From Streptosporangiales bacterium (GTDB taxonomy: Bacteria > Actinomycetota > Actinomycetes > Streptosporangiales > WHST01): 64,000 nucleotides of DNA. A program made the position numbers and the translations under genes. A model generated the notes under the pieces. That model had not been told where the DNA came from. It did no database searches and saw only the letters and a program-made list of their open reading frames with translations. Below are positions 10,790 through 20,437 of the stretch, in pieces. The first letter of the stretch is position 1, and the number at the start of each line of letters is the position of its first letter. The stretch covers positions 1 to 64,000 of the forward strand of contig WHTA01000010.1 in assembly GCA_009379825.1 (NCBI GenBank), read 5' to 3'.

Positions 10790-10975
10790 TCAGCTGTTCA
10801 GCCACTCCTTGGCGTAGGGCCACACCACTCCACCGGCGCCCTCGAGGACGTCACCGATCGGCAAGCCCCAGAGGTTGGCCTCCACGCCGTTGCCGGTGGC
10901 CGTGGCCGCCGACGGACCGATGCGGTTCACTGGTGCCGCCTGCAGCGGCATGTGCAGGTTCGCTGTGTGCGTCAT
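10790..10975 (-). CDS. Putative cyanobactin-like precursor peptide P2
   Basis: A 61-residue peptide with leader motif MPLQAAPVNR (residues 9-18), an 11-residue linker and GVEA at 30-33. The inferred core of 28 residues runs from NLWGLPIGDVLEG through GGVVWPYAKEWLNS. It has three tryptophans, is acidic in the first half and has a Pro-Tyr near the end. GAGGAG lies about 5 nt before the ATG at 10975. Same orientation and spacing as P1 and P3; function is inferred only from motif sharing and position. Confidence 0.65.
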   Translation of the reverse strand: MTHTANLHMPLQAAPVNRIGPSAATATGNGVEANLWGLPIGDVLEGAGGVVWPYAKEWLNS

Positions 10976-11035: not shown

Positions 11036-11230
11036 CTAGACCGACACCCCGTACTGCGTCGCGTAGCACATCTGCCTGGCCATGCCCCTGAGGTGGCTAC
11101 AGCGCGACTGGGCTGCTTCCACACCACCTTCGGACTCCTGCCACGCCAGGTCGTAGTGATCCCGGTTCACCGGGCGTGCCTGGACCGGCAGCGCGACGGT
11201 CGACCGCCGGGATCGCAGTGGGCTCGACAT
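11036..11230 (-). CDS. Putative cyanobactin-like precursor peptide P1
   Basis: A 64-residue peptide with leader motif LPVQARPVNR (residues 14-23), a 12-residue linker and GVEA at 36-39. The inferred 25-residue core is basic and contains two cysteines (C44 and C55) that could form a disulfide or a thioether-type ring, with the end MCYATQYGVSV. A strong AGGAGGT lies 6 nt before the ATG at 11230. It directly follows the protease gene (30 nt gap), so the two are almost certainly co-transcribed. Confidence 0.7.
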   Translation of the reverse strand: MSSPLRSRRSTVALPVQARPVNRDHYDLAWQESEGGVEAAQSRCSHLRGMARQMCYATQYGVSV

Positions 11231-11260: not shown

Positions 11261-13426
11261 TCAGGTACCGAGGAACCGGTGCGCGGGCGCAAGGCTGACG
11301 GGCAGCTCGTCGCTGACGTCGATGGTGAACAGGTACGAGACCCGGGCGCGTCTCTCGTTCTCCGGGTCGAAGAAGGTCGCCACGACGTCCCAGCAGTCCG
11401 AGTCGACCCGGTCGTAAGGGCTCTTCGCGACGGTGATGGTGTCCAGCGTGTAGAGGCCGACGTTCCTGCCCGGCACGTACCTGCCGGACATCAGGCCTGC
11501 CCTGATCTCGTTGGTGAACATGAACGCGTTGGTGCCCGCGTAGTTCAGCGCACGGTCGGCCGGCGTCTGGCCGAGGTTCCTGAACTGGTAGTACACCTTG
11601 TCCAGGAAGGCCCGGACGTTCTGCCGCAGGATGTCTTCGTCGAGCTCGTCCTCCGTGGTCTTCGCGACATCGGCGGTGACCTGCTCCACGGAGGCTTCCA
11701 CCAACGCCGCTTCGTTCCAGGTGTGGATGCCGCGGCTCTTGACCTCGACGACGGGCACGACCTGTCCGGAGAACAGCCGCACCGTGCGGTTCGTCAGCAC
11801 ACCGGGAACGGACACCCGGGAGATGAAGCCGCCCTCGTCGACCGGGCGTGCCTGCCCGGCGATCGCGTCCCTGAACATCTTGTACACGTGCGACACCGGC
11901 GGGAAGGCGGACAGGTTGGTCAGCATCTCGGCGAGATCCGCCGGCCGGCCGGCCGCCTGCTCGAGGCGATCACTGTCCCAGGTCGGGTCGACGACCGGCT
12001 CGCCCCAGTCCATGCCGACCGGCAGCTCCGCCTCGAGCGCGTAGAGCGGAGTGCGGTCCATGTTGAGGGTCCACGTCAGCTTGTCCGACGCCCACGGATT
12101 CCGCGCCAGGTAGGCACTGAGCTGGTTGGGGTCGTACGGGTTCGCCGCCACCGTGGTGTAGGTCTCGGGCTGCTCGCCGCCCGGCGCGGACACCGCGAAC
12201 GGGTCCATCTGTTGCCGGAAGCTGTCCCTGCGCGCCTCGGTACGGAAGTCGAAGCCGATCGTGCCGATCACGTAGACCAGCGACTTCGCACTCTCCCCGC
12301 CGCACTCGCAGCTGGCGGCCGGGCTCACGCCGGGTGCCGGCCGAGCGGGCGCGGCAGCTGCCGGTACCGCGCTGGCCTGCGCACCTACGGCGGGCTCGAC
12401 CGGCACTTCGGCCGGTGGGGCGCCCTCACACGCCGCCTGTACACCCGCCGGCTGAGCTTCAGGTGCAGCCGGCACCGCCTGCTGTGCCGCGGGCTGCACG
12501 TCCTGCGCTTGCATCGTTGGTGAGTCGGAAGTCGTCACAGCTATGTCCCTTCCCCGAGTGATCAGGGCGTACGCCCTTGCCCCGTTGAGCTTTCCGGCGA
12601 GGTACTTACGGCAGTCGGGTGCGACCACCGGGTCGCATTCGGTAGCGCCGCCGACGATGGCGTCGCGTACCGCCAACGGATCGGGCGCGTGCCCATCGGC
12701 CAACTGGCTCGCCAGCAACAGCGCGGCGACGCCGGACACCACGGGCGTGGCGAAGCTGCTGCCGGTGAGCGCCTGCTCCCCGCCACCGGGCGCCGCGCCC
12801 ACGATGTGCTGGCCAGGGGCGAGCACACCGTTGTTCTGGTACTCCTCGCCCCAGTTGTTCGCCGCGAGCGGCTCGCCGCTCCCGTCCGTCGCACCGACGG
12901 CGACCACCGAGGAGACCGCCGCGGGCACCTGCAGACAGTCGCATCCGTCGTTGCCGACCGCGGCTACGACGAGCACGCCGTTGTCCTCGCACAGTTGTAG
13001 CGCTCGGGCGAGGATGGGGTCCGGCACTCCGCCAGGGGTGCGCTCACCACCGCTGATGTTCACGACGTGGGCGCCCTCTTGCACCGCACGCTCGATGGCT
13101 CGCGCGAGATCGAGCTGCGACACGCGCGTGTCGCTGCCGTCGCGGAACACCGGCAGTAGCAACCCGCGGCAGCGCGGCGCGATACCGACGACGGGCGAAC
13201 CGGGTTGGCCGAAGAGCAAGCTCGTCACGTGCGTACCGTGCAGCGACATCGGGCCGATTCCCGCGGGATCCTGCACGAGGGTCCCGAGCCTGGTCAGATC
13301 CGCCCCGGCGAGACACGGGTGCGCCTGGTCGACGGGACCGTCGAGAACGGCGATGCAGATCGCGGGGTCACCCAGATTCTGGGCCAGTCGCAGTGGCAAC
13401 CCTGGCACGGCCGACCGTACGTCCAC
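11261..13426 (-). CDS. PatA/PatG-family cyanobactin-type maturation protease
   Basis: A 721-residue protein. Residues 1-290 are a subtilisin-like S8 protease with D29 (VLDG), H63 (LHGTHV), oxyanion N159 (AVGND) and S224 (TGSSFATP). An Ala/Pro linker (about 296-371) with a CEC pair at 373-375 leads to a C-terminal region (381-721) starting LVYVIGTIGFDFRTEARRDS, which matches the C-terminal domains of PatG-type proteases. There is no signal peptide, so processing should be cytoplasmic. The likely job is leader cleavage of the peptides encoded next door, perhaps after GVEA. GGAGGT lies 5 nt before the GTG at 13426. Macrocyclase activity is uncertain because the peptides lack an AYDG-like tail. 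Confidence 0.8.
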   Translation of the reverse strand: MDVRSAVPGLPLRLAQNLGDPAICIAVLDGPVDQAHPCLAGADLTRLGTLVQDPAGIGPMSLHGTHVTSLLFGQPGSPVVGIAPRCRGLLLPVFRDGSDTRVSQLDLARAIERAVQEGAHVVNISGGERTPGGVPDPILARALQLCEDNGVLVVAAVGNDGCDCLQVPAAVSSVVAVGATDGSGEPLAANNWGEEYQNNGVLAPGQHIVGAAPGGGEQALTGSSFATPVVSGVAALLLASQLADGHAPDPLAVRDAIVGGATECDPVVAPDCRKYLAGKLNGARAYALITRGRDIAVTTSDSPTMQAQDVQPAAQQAVPAAPEAQPAGVQAACEGAPPAEVPVEPAVGAQASAVPAAAAPARPAPGVSPAASCECGGESAKSLVYVIGTIGFDFRTEARRDSFRQQMDPFAVSAPGGEQPETYTTVAANPYDPNQLSAYLARNPWASDKLTWTLNMDRTPLYALEAELPVGMDWGEPVVDPTWDSDRLEQAAGRPADLAEMLTNLSAFPPVSHVYKMFRDAIAGQARPVDEGGFISRVSVPGVLTNRTVRLFSGQVVPVVEVKSRGIHTWNEAALVEASVEQVTADVAKTTEDELDEDILRQNVRAFLDKVYYQFRNLGQTPADRALNYAGTNAFMFTNEIRAGLMSGRYVPGRNVGLYTLDTITVAKSPYDRVDSDCWDVVATFFDPENERRARVSYLFTIDVSDELPVSLAPAHRFLGT

Positions 13427-16570: not shown

Positions 16571-17527
16571 TCACAGGTCCGACGGGTCGGTGTTGGCGCC
16601 GCAGCACACCACGGCGACGCGCTCGCCGGCGGCGGGGCGGTACGCGCCGGAGCGCAGCGCGGCAAGCGCGGCGGCGCCACTGTGCTCGACGACGATCCGG
16701 CAGCTCGCCCAGAGGTGCCGCCTCGCCTCTACGATGGCGTCGTCGGTGACGAGCACGCTCGCCACGTTCGTCGCGCTCGTCGTGGCGTACGCGATGGTGC
16801 CCGCGCGCCTGGCGCCGAGCGAGTCTGCGGCCACGGCCGTGGTGTCCACCTCGATGTCGACGGGCCCGCCCGCGGCGAACGCCGCGTGCAGCGTCGGCAG
16901 GTTGGCGGGTTCGACGGCGACCACGTCCGCCCTGCCGGCGAGCCCGGCGGTGATGCCCGCGATCAAGCCGCCACCGCCGGCCGCGACGAGCACGGTGTCG
17001 AACTCCGCCTGCTCGAGCAGCTCGAGCGCCAGCGTGCCCTGTCCCGCGCACACCTCACGCTGGTCGTAGGCGTGCACCTCCACTGCCCCGGTCGCCGCGA
17101 TCCTGGCCTTCGCCGCGGCGAGCGCGTCGGCGTAGCTGGCGCCGCCGACCACCACCTCGGCGCCGTAGCCGCGCAGCCGGTCCGCCTTGACCTTGCTGAT
17201 CACCTCGGGCACGTAGATCTCGGCGGACGCACCGATCCGGCCGGCGCCGTACGCCACCGCGAGGCCCGCGTTGCCGCCGGAAGCGGCCACCACACCGGCG
17301 TCGGTCAGCTCGCCGGACTCGGCGGCGGCAAGCAGCCGGTTCGTCGCGCCGCGCGCCTTGAAGGTGCCGGTGTGCTGGAGGTACTCCAGCTTCAGCGACA
17401 CCGGTGTGCCGTCGTCCCGCTCGACGGCCACCACGGGTGTGCGGCGGACGTGCTGGCGGATGCGATCGTGGGCCTGCTCGACCTCGACGGTGGTGAGGGC
17501 GTCGGTGAGCTCGTCACAACTAGTCAC
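16571..17527 (-). CDS. PLP-dependent threonine/serine dehydratase family protein
   Basis: A 318-residue fold-type II PLP enzyme. The cofactor lysine lies in TGTFKARGATNR (K57), followed by the SGGNAGLAVAYGA substrate loop and the AAGGGGLIAG phosphate-binding loop, in the order of threonine ammonia-lyase/serine racemase. There is no C-terminal ACT regulatory domain, so it resembles catabolic or stand-alone dehydratases that turn Thr or Ser into 2-oxoacids and ammonia. GTG at 17527 overlaps the preceding stop (GTGA), which sets the start; a much longer upstream reading is out-of-frame shadow. Last gene of a three-gene operon. Confidence 0.8.
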   Translation of the reverse strand: MTSCDELTDALTTVEVEQAHDRIRQHVRRTPVVAVERDDGTPVSLKLEYLQHTGTFKARGATNRLLAAAESGELTDAGVVAASGGNAGLAVAYGAGRIGASAEIYVPEVISKVKADRLRGYGAEVVVGGASYADALAAAKARIAATGAVEVHAYDQREVCAGQGTLALELLEQAEFDTVLVAAGGGGLIAGITAGLAGRADVVAVEPANLPTLHAAFAAGGPVDIEVDTTAVAADSLGARRAGTIAYATTSATNVASVLVTDDAIVEARRHLWASCRIVVEHSGAAALAALRSGAYRPAAGERVAVVCCGANTDPSDL

Positions 17528-17937
17528 GCTGAGCACCCTACGCCGCGCCTGCGGTGTTCGTCGCACCAGCGACGTGAGCAGCCGTTGGTGCGGTCGACGA
17601 CCGGCCGGCCGCACCTGGCGCACCGCTTGAACCTGCCCCAGCCCGACAGCGCGACCAGCTCGGCGACGGCGCACACGGCCGCCGTCACGGGGGTGACCAG
17701 GCGGCCGCGGCCCACGTACACCAGCCGCCAGGAACCTGGGCAGCCGTCGAGGCACGGCTGCGCTCCCAGCTCGACCATCAGCTCGTTCAGCCGATCCGCT
17801 GCGGCCGACTCGTCCGGCAGCGCCCACAGCACTCGACACAGGCCCGGCTGCCCACCCGCGAGGAAGTGCTCGGCCAGCCTGAGCCCAGGGTCGAGTGCTG
17901 CGAACGGCGGCCGTACCGCCGCCCCACGGGTCGCCAC
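17524..17937 (-). CDS. CGNR-type zinc-finger protein (short)
   Basis: A 137-residue protein. The C-terminal treble-clef region reads FKRCARCGRPVVDRTNGC with SRRWCDEHRRR after it, the zinc-binding plan of CGNR family regulators, although the strict CGNR signature is replaced here. The N-terminal part (residues 1-95) corresponds to a shortened ABATE-like (stress-activation) domain. These proteins are presumed transcription regulators. It starts with GTG at 17937, 2 nt after the L11-like gene stop, and overlaps the dehydratase start by 4 nt, so the three are translationally linked. Confidence 0.65.
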   Translation of the reverse strand: MATRGAAVRPPFAALDPGLRLAEHFLAGGQPGLCRVLWALPDESAAADRLNELMVELGAQPCLDGCPGSWRLVYVGRGRLVTPVTAAVCAVAELVALSGWGRFKRCARCGRPVVDRTNGCSRRWCDEHRRRGVGCSA

Positions 17938-17939
17938 GG

Positions 17940-18350
17940 TCAGCCCTCCTCGACGCGGACCCCCATCGAGCGCGCCGTGCCCGCGACGGTGCGTGCGGCC
18001 TTCGCCAGGTCGGCGGTGTTCAGGTCCGGCAGCTTCCGCGCCGCGATCGTCTCGAGCTGGGCCCGCGACAGCACCCGGTCACCGGACGAGCCGTTCGTCG
18101 CGAGCGCCTGCTTGATCAGCGACGCGGTGGGCGGCGTCTTGTAACGCAGCTCGAACGACTTGTCGTCGTAGATGGTGATGACGACTGGCACGATGTCGCC
18201 GCGCTGGCCGGCGGTCGCCTCGTCGTAGGCGCGCTTGACGGCCATCATGTTCACGCCCGTCGGCCCGAGCATCTTGCCCAGGTCGACGACCGCCGCGTCA
18301 CCCGCGGCCAACTCCACGGTCAGCCGGTGGCCGACCTTCTTCACTGCCAT
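17940..18350 (-). CDS. Ribosomal protein L11 paralogue lacking the conserved prolines
   Basis: A 136-residue protein clearly homologous to ribosomal L11: GVNMMAVKRAYDEAT, IPVVITIYDDKSFE-like text, KTPPTASLIKQAL and a C-terminal RTVAGTARSMGV. It is not next to rplA, rplJ or secE/nusG, so it is a second copy. The N-terminal loop that in normal L11 reads NPxPPVGPAL is here AAVVDLGKML. Relative to E. coli numbering P20, P22, P23 and P26 become A, V, D and K, with no gap. Changes at those prolines are linked to thiopeptide (thiostrepton) resistance in established work. GAGGAGG precedes the ATG. A resistance or specialised-ribosome role is inferred. Confidence 0.8.
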   Translation of the reverse strand: MAVKKVGHRLTVELAAGDAAVVDLGKMLGPTGVNMMAVKRAYDEATAGQRGDIVPVVITIYDDKSFELRYKTPPTASLIKQALATNGSSGDRVLSRAQLETIAARKLPDLNTADLAKAARTVAGTARSMGVRVEEG

Positions 18351-18426
18351 CGTGCCCCCTCCTCGGTTCTCGCTTGCCGAGGCAGGAAGCTATGGCCTCC
18401 AGAGGGTGGAGACTCAAGTCCGAGAG

Positions 18427-20296
18427 CTACGCGACGGCCGGCACGACGTCCACGTCCGCCGCCCGCACGTAGCCCATCCGGTGGCCCATCCACACCAGGT
18501 AGTACCTGTCCTTGCCGACGATCTGCCGGCCGGGCACCTGGTACTCCTTCGCGTAGTAGTAGTCGGTCTGGACCTTCGGGTCCGCGACCACCACGGACCG
18601 GCCGGACTCGAGCGAGTACTGCAGTGGCTTCAGCTCTTGGTACGGCACGTCGTCCGGGTACGCGCTCTCCTCCGGGTACGCGGTGCCGTAGAACGGGATC
18701 GAGTCGCTGCCGGCCTTCGGCTGCGCCACTGGTCGGATTGTCGGCCGGGTCGTGGAACCACGCCTGCTGGCCGAGGTACCAGACCGCCGTCCAGTCGCCG
18801 TCGCGGCCCGCGTACGGGTACTGCGCGCCCGCCGCGGCCCTGGCGCCGATGTCGGACACGTTCGTGGTGCTCGGGCTGCCGTCCGGCTGCAGGCCGACGT
18901 CGTTGACGAGCGGCGCGTCGTCGTTCGGCTCGGTGCGCAGGTAGACGAAGTTGGTGCCGGGTTCGTCGCACGCCGCGTCCGGGTCGTCGCCGCAACCGGC
19001 GACCAGCTGGTCGTTGCCCGCGAAGCCAGGCAGGATCGTGACGACGCCGCCGCGCGGGTTGTTGCCAGGGGCGATCGGCGAGTCCAGCAGGTCGAAGTAG
19101 TGCTCCCAGTCCCAGAACGGCCCGGGGTCGTGGTGCATGGCGGGCACCCGGCTCGGCTCGGTCGCCGGCACCTGGTCGTGCCCGATGATGTGCGAACGGT
19201 CGAGCGGGACGTCGTACTTCTCCGCCAGGTAGCGCACGAGGGCGGCGGAGTTCTGGTACATCGCCTCGGTGTACCAGCTGCCGTCGGCCTCGTAACCCTC
19301 GTGCTCGATGCCGATCGAGTGCATGTTCGTGTACCAGTTGCCGGCCTGCCACGCGACGTTCTTGTGCTTGACGTGCTGCGCGACCTGACCGTCGTTCGAC
19401 CTGATCGTGTACTGCCAGCTCACGTACTCCGGATCCTGCACGAGCTCGAGCGTGTTGGCCCAGGTCTCCTCGGTGTCGTGCACGACGATCTGGTCGATCT
19501 TCATGTCGTCCGGGCGGTTCGCGAGGTCGTGGTTGCCGTAGTCGCCAGGCCCGTCGCCGTACTTCTCGTACGGCGCGGGGATCCACTGGCAGCCGAGTCG
19601 CTCGGGGCACTGCACCTTGCCCTCGCTCTTGCTGTCGGCGAGCCGGAGCCGGCCGAGCTGTGCGCGCGCCGGCTGCACGTCGGGATGCGGCGCGAGCCGC
19701 ACCCGTTCACCGTCCGCCGTCGTACGCGCGGCGCCGTCGCGCATCCGCGCGAAGACCTGGTTGGCGAACGACTCTGCGACCGGCCTGGTGGACGCACCGC
19801 TGTACTTCGCCACCGCCGCGTACCAGTCGCCGGCGGGCGTGCCGCGCCCAGTCGACAGGTCAAGCTTGCGTTGGTAGTCGGCCAGCAGAGCGGCTCCGCC
19901 GCGGACGTTCGCCGCCGGGTCGTCGCGCAGCTCCGCGGCGCGCGTGCCGGTAAGGCGCGCGGCACGGTCGAGCGTGTGCAGCGCCGTGTCGGACGGCGTG
20001 ACCCGCGCCGTGTGCTCGCGGTCGCCGACACCTGTGGGTGCGTCCGCGTCGGTGAGGTGCATCGGCCCGTAGCCGCCGGCTCTGCTCGGCCGGCCCGCAT
20101 GGTCCTCCCAGCGCGACTGCAGGTACGAGACGCCGAGCAGCACCTCGACAGGCACGTCGAACTCCGCCGCCGCGGCGTTGAACTCCTGCTGCAGCGACGG
20201 CATCGGGGCGGGGCCGGCAGCGGCCTGCGGGGCGACCACCGCGACCGGTGTGGCGACGACGACTGCGGCCAGCATGACGCGGTACCGACGGCGCAT
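18427..20296 (-). pseudogene. Secreted N-acetylmuramoyl-L-alanine amidase, frameshifted
   Basis: The product starts with a signal peptide (MRRRYRVMLAAVVVATPVAV then AAG), a helical region (about residues 25-200), and an Amidase_2 zinc-amidase domain with IVVHDTEETW, MHSIGIEHEGY, HIIGHDQVPA and MHHDPGPFWDW, which hydrolyses the amide bond of peptidoglycan stem peptides outside the cell. A C-terminal SH3-like region follows. The frame breaks near 18730 in NPT; shifting frame continues into VAQPKAGSDSIPFYGTAYPE and ends at 18427. One surplus base explains it. The ATG at 20296 has GGAG 7 nt upstream. A sequencing error is the simplest reading; if real, the last 100 residues are lost. Confidence 0.75.
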
Positions 20297-20437
20297 ACCC
20301 CGACTCCTCACCCCTCGGTAGGAAAGCTGCAGCTACCCTGGTCCCTCCGTTAGGAACTGTCAACGCTATGCGGCGCGGTGTGACTGCCGGCCGGGTCGAT
20401 AGCCTGACAGGCAGTTCGAGAATGCAAGGGGGGTCCG

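Follow-up and report, generated by a model that had tools for sequence, protein, structure and literature searches.

A family of actinomycete ribosomal protein L11 paralogues with an altered thiopeptide-contact loop and a MerR-type promoter

The paralogue gene and its neighbourhood

The window, by which we mean the whole stretch of 64,000 nucleotides that was analysed, carries on its reverse strand a gene for a protein with both domains of ribosomal protein L11. The features that concern us here are as follows.

18387-18417 (minus strand): MerR-type promoter/operator, TTGAGT-CTCCACCCTCTGGAGGCCA-TAGCTT, with a 19-bp spacer and a CTCC-N7-GGAG dyad
18355-18364 (minus strand): ribosome binding site GAGGAGGGGG, read directly from the sequence, ahead of the ATG at 18350
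17940-18350 (minus strand): L11 paralogue of subfamily A, 136 aa, with Pfam PF03946 and PF00298, one of a clade of 61 paralogues
18267-18296 (minus strand): altered thiopeptide-contact loop AAVVDLGKML, codons 19-28, by alignment one residue shorter than the canonical loop, with K at position 26
17524-17937 (minus strand): short CGNR/ABATE-type zinc-finger protein, starting 2 nt past the L11 stop
16571-17536 (minus strand): serine/threonine dehydratase (PRK08246, 398.7 bits), overlapping the CGNR gene
11261-13426 (minus strand): PatA/PatG-type RiPP maturation protease (TIGR03895, 616 bits), 4.5 kb downstream of the paralogue

Both L11 Pfam domains score above their curated cut-offs (PF03946, E 4e-15, 55.6 bits versus 32.9; PF00298, E 3e-15, 57 bits versus 21.4), whereas the TIGR01632 equivalog cut-off of 141.85 bits is not reached (107.6 bits); the protein is thus not the canonical rplK product. 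Its reading frame is intact with a GC3 of 0.96, and the gene is a real, full-length L11 paralogue. The sole other L11 in the genome (G000; 6.15 Mb in 169 contigs, completeness estimate 100%) is the canonical rplK at G000:C58:9013-9426, which is unlinked to the paralogue and lies in a secE-nusG-rplK-rplA-rplJ-rplL context, the gene names being taken from inspection of the translations. A preliminary description, made from the letters of the window, had named the gene an L11 paralogue far from the normal L11 operon, and in both respects it was right. The alignment with the main rplK that it had proposed gives 44% identity, with the contact prolines absent from the paralogue.

The same description placed the paralogue in an operon with the CGNR protein and the dehydratase, a view that we can uphold in its first half. 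From gene order, the CGNR gene is a probable operon partner: a CGNR family lies directly downstream of the paralogue in seven loci, with zf-CGNR recognised in six and ABATE in four of these seven members, at weak scores. The dehydratase gene overlaps the CGNR gene and is possibly co-transcribed, but it was not found among the neighbours common to paralogue loci. Both the dehydratase and the PatG-type protease were rejected as partners, since neither is conserved near paralogues.

Several other observations were made in the window. Two small ORFs downstream of the PatA/PatG protease (10790-10975 and 11036-11230, both on the minus strand) share a QA(A/R)PVNR motif and look like RiPP precursor peptides. 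Upstream of the paralogue, an Amidase_2 gene (18427-20311, minus strand) seems to be frameshifted near 18.73 kb, its plausible C-terminus continuing in another frame to a stop at 18427; this is either a sequencing error or real. Finally, a long series of genes, all on the minus strand (33838-56511), reads like a cobalamin biosynthesis cluster, as judged from the translations only.

A paralogue family with a shortened loop

When 345 genomes of the same order were searched with a profile, about 40 proved to have a second L11 of the paralogue type. The same type was found by a GTDB scan in Amycolatopsis, Kibdelosporangium, Kutzneria, Prauserella, Actinocrispum, Pseudonocardia, Allokutzneria and Saccharothrix, with further carriers in Actinoalloteichus, Dactylosporangium, Micromonospora, Plantactinospora, Planosporangium, Nocardia, Nonomuraea and Sinosporangium. 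Many soil actinomycetes, the strain studied here among them, thus have such a spare L11. Some genomes of the searched order have paralogues identical to those in named Nonomuraea and Sinosporangium records, so that the genome under study probably belongs to the Streptosporangiales as well. In a maximum-likelihood tree built on few columns, the 61 paralogues group together and are separated from canonical L11 with 99/96 support. They comprise subfamily A (n=32 including the window copy; example loop AGNAPVVDLGKMLGQTGVN), which has the fixed changes C39->K and N43->D outside the loop, and subfamily B (n=29; loop AGEAGPANVGKDLGPLGIN). Within subfamily A, only a Nocardia pair diverges more than the window copy, which has a branch length of 0.59 and a C-terminal loop that is shortened in the alignment. 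Across fifteen close paralogue pairs, dN/dS is 0.07-0.28, which denotes purifying selection; hence, the paralogue genes make functional proteins. No paralogue was found in the assembly (97% complete) of a sister species of the same genus (G001). At one further locus (L166, in G073), an operator is followed from 4430 on by the start of a paralogue-like frame, and the profile search listed only one L11 for that genome; the frame probably represents an incomplete or broken paralogue.

In E. coli numbering (Met = 1), canonical L11 has P20, P22 and P23 in 20/20 sequences, and P or T at position 26. With the preceding AG and the following LGxxGVN as anchors, the canonical loop has 15 residues and that of the paralogue, AG-DAAVVDLGKMLG, has 14. 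Likewise, within the genome under study, the paralogue loop reads AGDAAVVDLGKMLGPTGVN and the canonical rplK has a normal loop that is one residue longer. MAFFT places a one-residue deletion at the PP pair, and this deletion is present in 61/61 paralogues; the residue of the pair that remains is D, E, N or T, and K stands at position 26 in 60/61. For the window loop, the best reading of the alignment would be P20->V, deletion of one of P22/P23 with the other replaced by D, V24->L and P26->K, the exact position of the gap between 20 and 23 being uncertain. The preliminary description had aligned AAVVDLGKML without gaps and had derived from this the changes of P20, P22, P23 and P26 to A, V, D and K. 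Its central observation holds, in that the contact prolines are lost and P26 has become K; the gapless alignment and the exact substitutions are wrong, because the paralogue loop is one residue shorter and the deletion falls in the PP pair. Two subfamilies have this pattern fixed, and close pairs show the low dN/dS given above; it is therefore not due to chance.

The N-terminal prolines of uL11 stack with thiopeptides in the cleft formed with H43/H44, and changes at these positions reduce binding (PMC5960728). Elsewhere in the paralogues the L11 character is maintained: the C-terminal rRNA-binding residues K72, P74, K113, D116, N118, R134, S135, M136 and G137 are nearly invariant in the paralogue alignment, and the framework of conserved glycines and prolines is retained. 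The paralogue thus resembles canonical L11 in its two Pfam domains and its rRNA-binding residues, and differs from it in the missing contact prolines, the TIGR01632 score, its place outside the secE-nusG-rplK-rplA operon and its MerR-type promoter.

The MerR-type promoter and its candidate regulator

The window promoter, read as TTGAGTCTCCACCCTCTGGAGGCCATAGCTT at 18387-18417 on the minus strand, scores 18 against 15 for the best shuffle, and is followed by a leader longer than in many relatives and by a GAGGAGG ribosome binding site. Upstream of the paralogues as a family, the promoter takes the form TTGA[GC]T-CTCC-N7-GGAG-N4-TAGCGT with a 19-bp spacer. At a score threshold that was reached, but never exceeded, by 2,920 shuffled sequences, a promoter of this type is present ahead of 24/32 subfamily A genes and 22/29 subfamily B genes, as against 0/15 canonical genes. 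In many paralogues, about 7 nt separate the -10 hexamer from the start codon, and the transcripts of these genes are therefore probably leaderless.

In the 6.15 Mb genome, the exact operator occurs at two sites, namely the window gene and C29:8530, while the reversed control pattern gives 0; with one mismatch allowed, the same search returned 9 sites versus 11 for the control, which is noise. The pattern TTGAGTCTCC-N7-GGA has 85 sites in 80 genomes versus 1 for its reverse, and 73 of the 85 adjoin a paralogue or a MerR homologue. Of the remaining 12, seven lie ahead of genes for stand-alone proteins of ~180 aa and two ahead of DUF2268 predicted Zn proteases; the rest precede one MerR fragment, one ABC ATPase and, in one case, nothing clear. 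The stand-alone proteins (L173:1163-1699, L174, L175, L176, L177, L178 and L181) each lie behind the same operator, and the C-terminal domain of the MerR protein described below shares 39% identity (E 1e-33) with the one used for comparison. The DUF2268 genes (L179:2156-3019, minus strand; L180:1104-1991, plus strand; E 1e-35 and 3e-34) have their start codon near the -10 box, and the proteases that they are predicted to encode could degrade a peptide drug.

There is no MerR gene beside the window paralogue. The second exact operator lies before the following gene.

G000:C29:8568-9515: MerR gene, candidate for an unlinked regulator, with an operator at G000:C29:8530-8550, 17 nt before the gene

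Its product has a PF13411 DNA-binding domain (69.4 bits versus a cut-off of 21.6) and is 49% identical to the MerR protein encoded beside the paralogue in locus L033. In 32/40 paralogue-bearing genomes, a MerR homologue is found no more than 400 bp from the paralogue, divergently in the loci inspected, and a second genome (G079) has an unlinked pair of paralogue and MerR gene, both with operators. We predict that, in the genome under study, the window paralogue and this MerR gene constitute a two-gene regulon. MerR homologues with such operators occur also in genomes that have no paralogue, often with an AAGGGGA right half; hence, the regulator family is broader than its link to L11. In the sister species G001, a MerR gene and its operator are kept (L167, 4404-5383) where the paralogue was not found. 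Control by a MerR-type switch would be a new element in the story of L11 paralogues.

The candidate regulator was further compared with the TipA class (TipAL/TipAS, Mta, SkgA) and with the drug-binding protein AlbA. It shares with them a MerR DNA-binding domain, a TTGACCCT...AGG-type operator between -35 and -10, and an operator ahead of its own gene; stand-alone sensor domains, as in TipAS and AlbA, are found under the same operator. Unlike in the TipA class, the half-sites are CTCC/GGAG, Pfam TipAS stays below cut-off, and the target gene encodes a ribosomal protein, for which no TipA-class counterpart was found in the literature searched. In a fold search with the model of a whole MerR relative, known MerR proteins matched over the DNA-binding half only. 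The sensor domain of a Nonomuraea relative (L094) was then modelled alone (pLDDT 79; the model is that of the relative's domain and not of the protein encoded here), and this all-helical model has TipAS and AlbA as its eight best VIA-align rows. The structure 2mbz, TipAS with promothiocin, aligns over 86 residues at 3.0 A with a Z of 6.0, which is below 8; the AlbA rows have Z 4.8-5.3 and unrelated chains reach at most 4.2. The Foldseek match is weak (E 0.35). By hhalign, the domain aligns weakly with TipAS (13%), too weakly for membership to be claimed. Pfam TipAS is matched weakly in 4/9 MerR members (best E 0.0015), and with the curated profile both the MerR protein of this genome (E 0.057) and the best family member fall below cut-off. 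Since three weak lines agree, each below the usual thresholds, we regard the sensor domain as only probably related to TipAS/AlbA.

A TipA with a TipAS domain was also considered as regulator of the window gene and was rejected, as PF07739 has 0 matches in the genome. Nevertheless, the operators upstream of the paralogue in L034, L045 and L046 have a CGTGAGG right half, which the published tipA operator resembles (PMC7762955). The paralogue genomes with operators of this tipA-like kind (G090, G205 and G212) have true TipAS-type regulators, and TipA itself may therefore drive the paralogue there.

What the altered L11 may do

Given that the rRNA-binding residues are kept, the prolines are lost and the switch is of a drug-sensor MerR type, the best explanation in our view, and one that we hold with somewhat more belief than doubt, is an inducible, drug-refractory L11 under MerR control that replaces normal L11. 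The MerR regulator encoded at G000:C29:8568-9515, which has an operator before its own gene, would occupy the paralogue's operator and switch on the alternative L11; most likely, it would sense a peptide antibiotic, or another inhibitor, through its all-helical C-terminal domain. As its C-terminal rRNA-binding residues are retained, the induced L11 could then substitute for normal L11 at H43/H44 of 23S rRNA. Drugs of the L11-rRNA cleft would bind badly to the shorter, charged, proline-less loop, because the prolines that stack with their thiazoles are gone, and translation would continue. The idea of a thiopeptide-refractory L11 copy, already raised in the preliminary description, is the best supported of those considered and, from what sequences can tell, partly supported.

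The L11 proline loop matters for RelA and factor function, and drug exclusion is therefore not the sole reason to change its prolines. Because the same loop serves drug binding and RelA/GTPase function, the main rival is an L11 specific to stress, which would adjust the GTPase-associated centre or the stringent response: when the MerR protein senses the stress in question, ribosomes with this L11 would activate RelA poorly or differ in their handling of factors. MerR proteins do sense many stresses, and CGNR/ABATE proteins are annotated as stress-induced regulators. We nevertheless consider this explanation unlikely, in that the stand-alone sensor domains and DUF2268 proteases under the operator, as well as a sensor probably related to TipAS/AlbA, fit drug defence better, and the site of thiazole contact coincides with the charged, shortened loop.

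It is improbable that the protein acts outside translating ribosomes, for example as an rRNA-binding regulator or a decoy. Its low identity to the canonical protein (44%) and the fixed subfamily A changes C39->K and N43->D outside the loop would suit such a role, but the H43/H44-binding residues and the glycine and proline framework are kept as in a ribosomal protein.

Producer self-resistance, in which the strain would make an L11-targeting peptide and keep a resistant L11, has a presumed precedent in TclQ, the L11 paralogue of thiocillin and micrococcin P1 clusters (Bacillus, Staphylococcus); TclQ is presumed to replace native L11, and its cluster also holds a putative MerR regulator, tclU (PMC12724294). 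We compared the paralogues with the micrococcin immunity L11 from a Staphylococcus hominis plasmid. In both cases an extra L11 has a changed thiopeptide-contact loop. However, TclQ keeps P20, P22 and P23 with T at 26, whereas the paralogues have the PP deletion and K26; TclQ sits inside a biosynthetic cluster and branches with canonical L11, whereas the neighbour comparison found no thiopeptide biosynthetic cluster around the paralogues, which branch separately (99/96). The paralogue would thus act in the way presumed for TclQ, but with its different surroundings and branch the family does not belong to the TclQ group. No description of it was found in the open-access literature, where TclQ did appear, and to that extent the family seems new.

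Carriers of the paralogue match thiopep_ocin (TIGR03891) slightly more often than non-carriers, at 32/39 versus 25/40, which is little difference; among the matches listed, the nearest thiopep_ocin to share a contig with a paralogue lies ~150 kb from it. The PatA/PatG-type protease gene 4.5 kb downstream in the window might also hint at a producer, but proteases of the PatG type go with other classes of RiPP, and the gene shows no conservation in the vicinity of paralogues. In the genome under study, with its completeness estimate of 100%, TIGR03891 has no match. As this thiopeptide-type dehydratase domain is absent, we reject self-resistance as quite improbable, and with it the suggestion of the preliminary description that this is a producer's spare L11; an environmental threat is likely instead. 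Finally, it is very unlikely that the window copy is a chance or decaying duplicate that currently has no function in this strain. Its long branch (0.59), its shortened C-terminal loop and the failure to find a paralogue in G001 would suit this reading, but the frame is intact (GC3 0.96), the perfect operator has its only other match at the regulator, and purifying selection acts throughout the family.

Taken together, our results lead us to propose, tentatively and with rather less assurance than for the replacement of L11 itself, that the paralogues may belong to a widespread actinomycete antibiotic-defence regulon. In this regulon, a TipA-like MerR sensor would swap in a drug-refractory L11 on demand, in some lineages along with Zn proteases and drug-binding domains that stand alone, and the peptides countered would come from the environment and not from the strain itself. 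The site protected would be the same as with the thiostrepton-type 23S rRNA A1067 methyltransferases, which modify the rRNA, whereas in the paralogue it is the protein part of that site that differs. If this holds, inducible exchange of a ribosomal protein would be an added defence against L11-site antibiotics outside producers, with ribosomes rebuilt around a refractory L11 instead of rRNA methylation or drug efflux, and TipA-like sensors would gain an effector at the very target of the drug. The operator together with an L11 paralogue would then be a genome marker for exposure to antibiotics of the GTPase-associated centre, and a natural L11 without the proline loop would be useful to separate drug binding from RelA and factor function.
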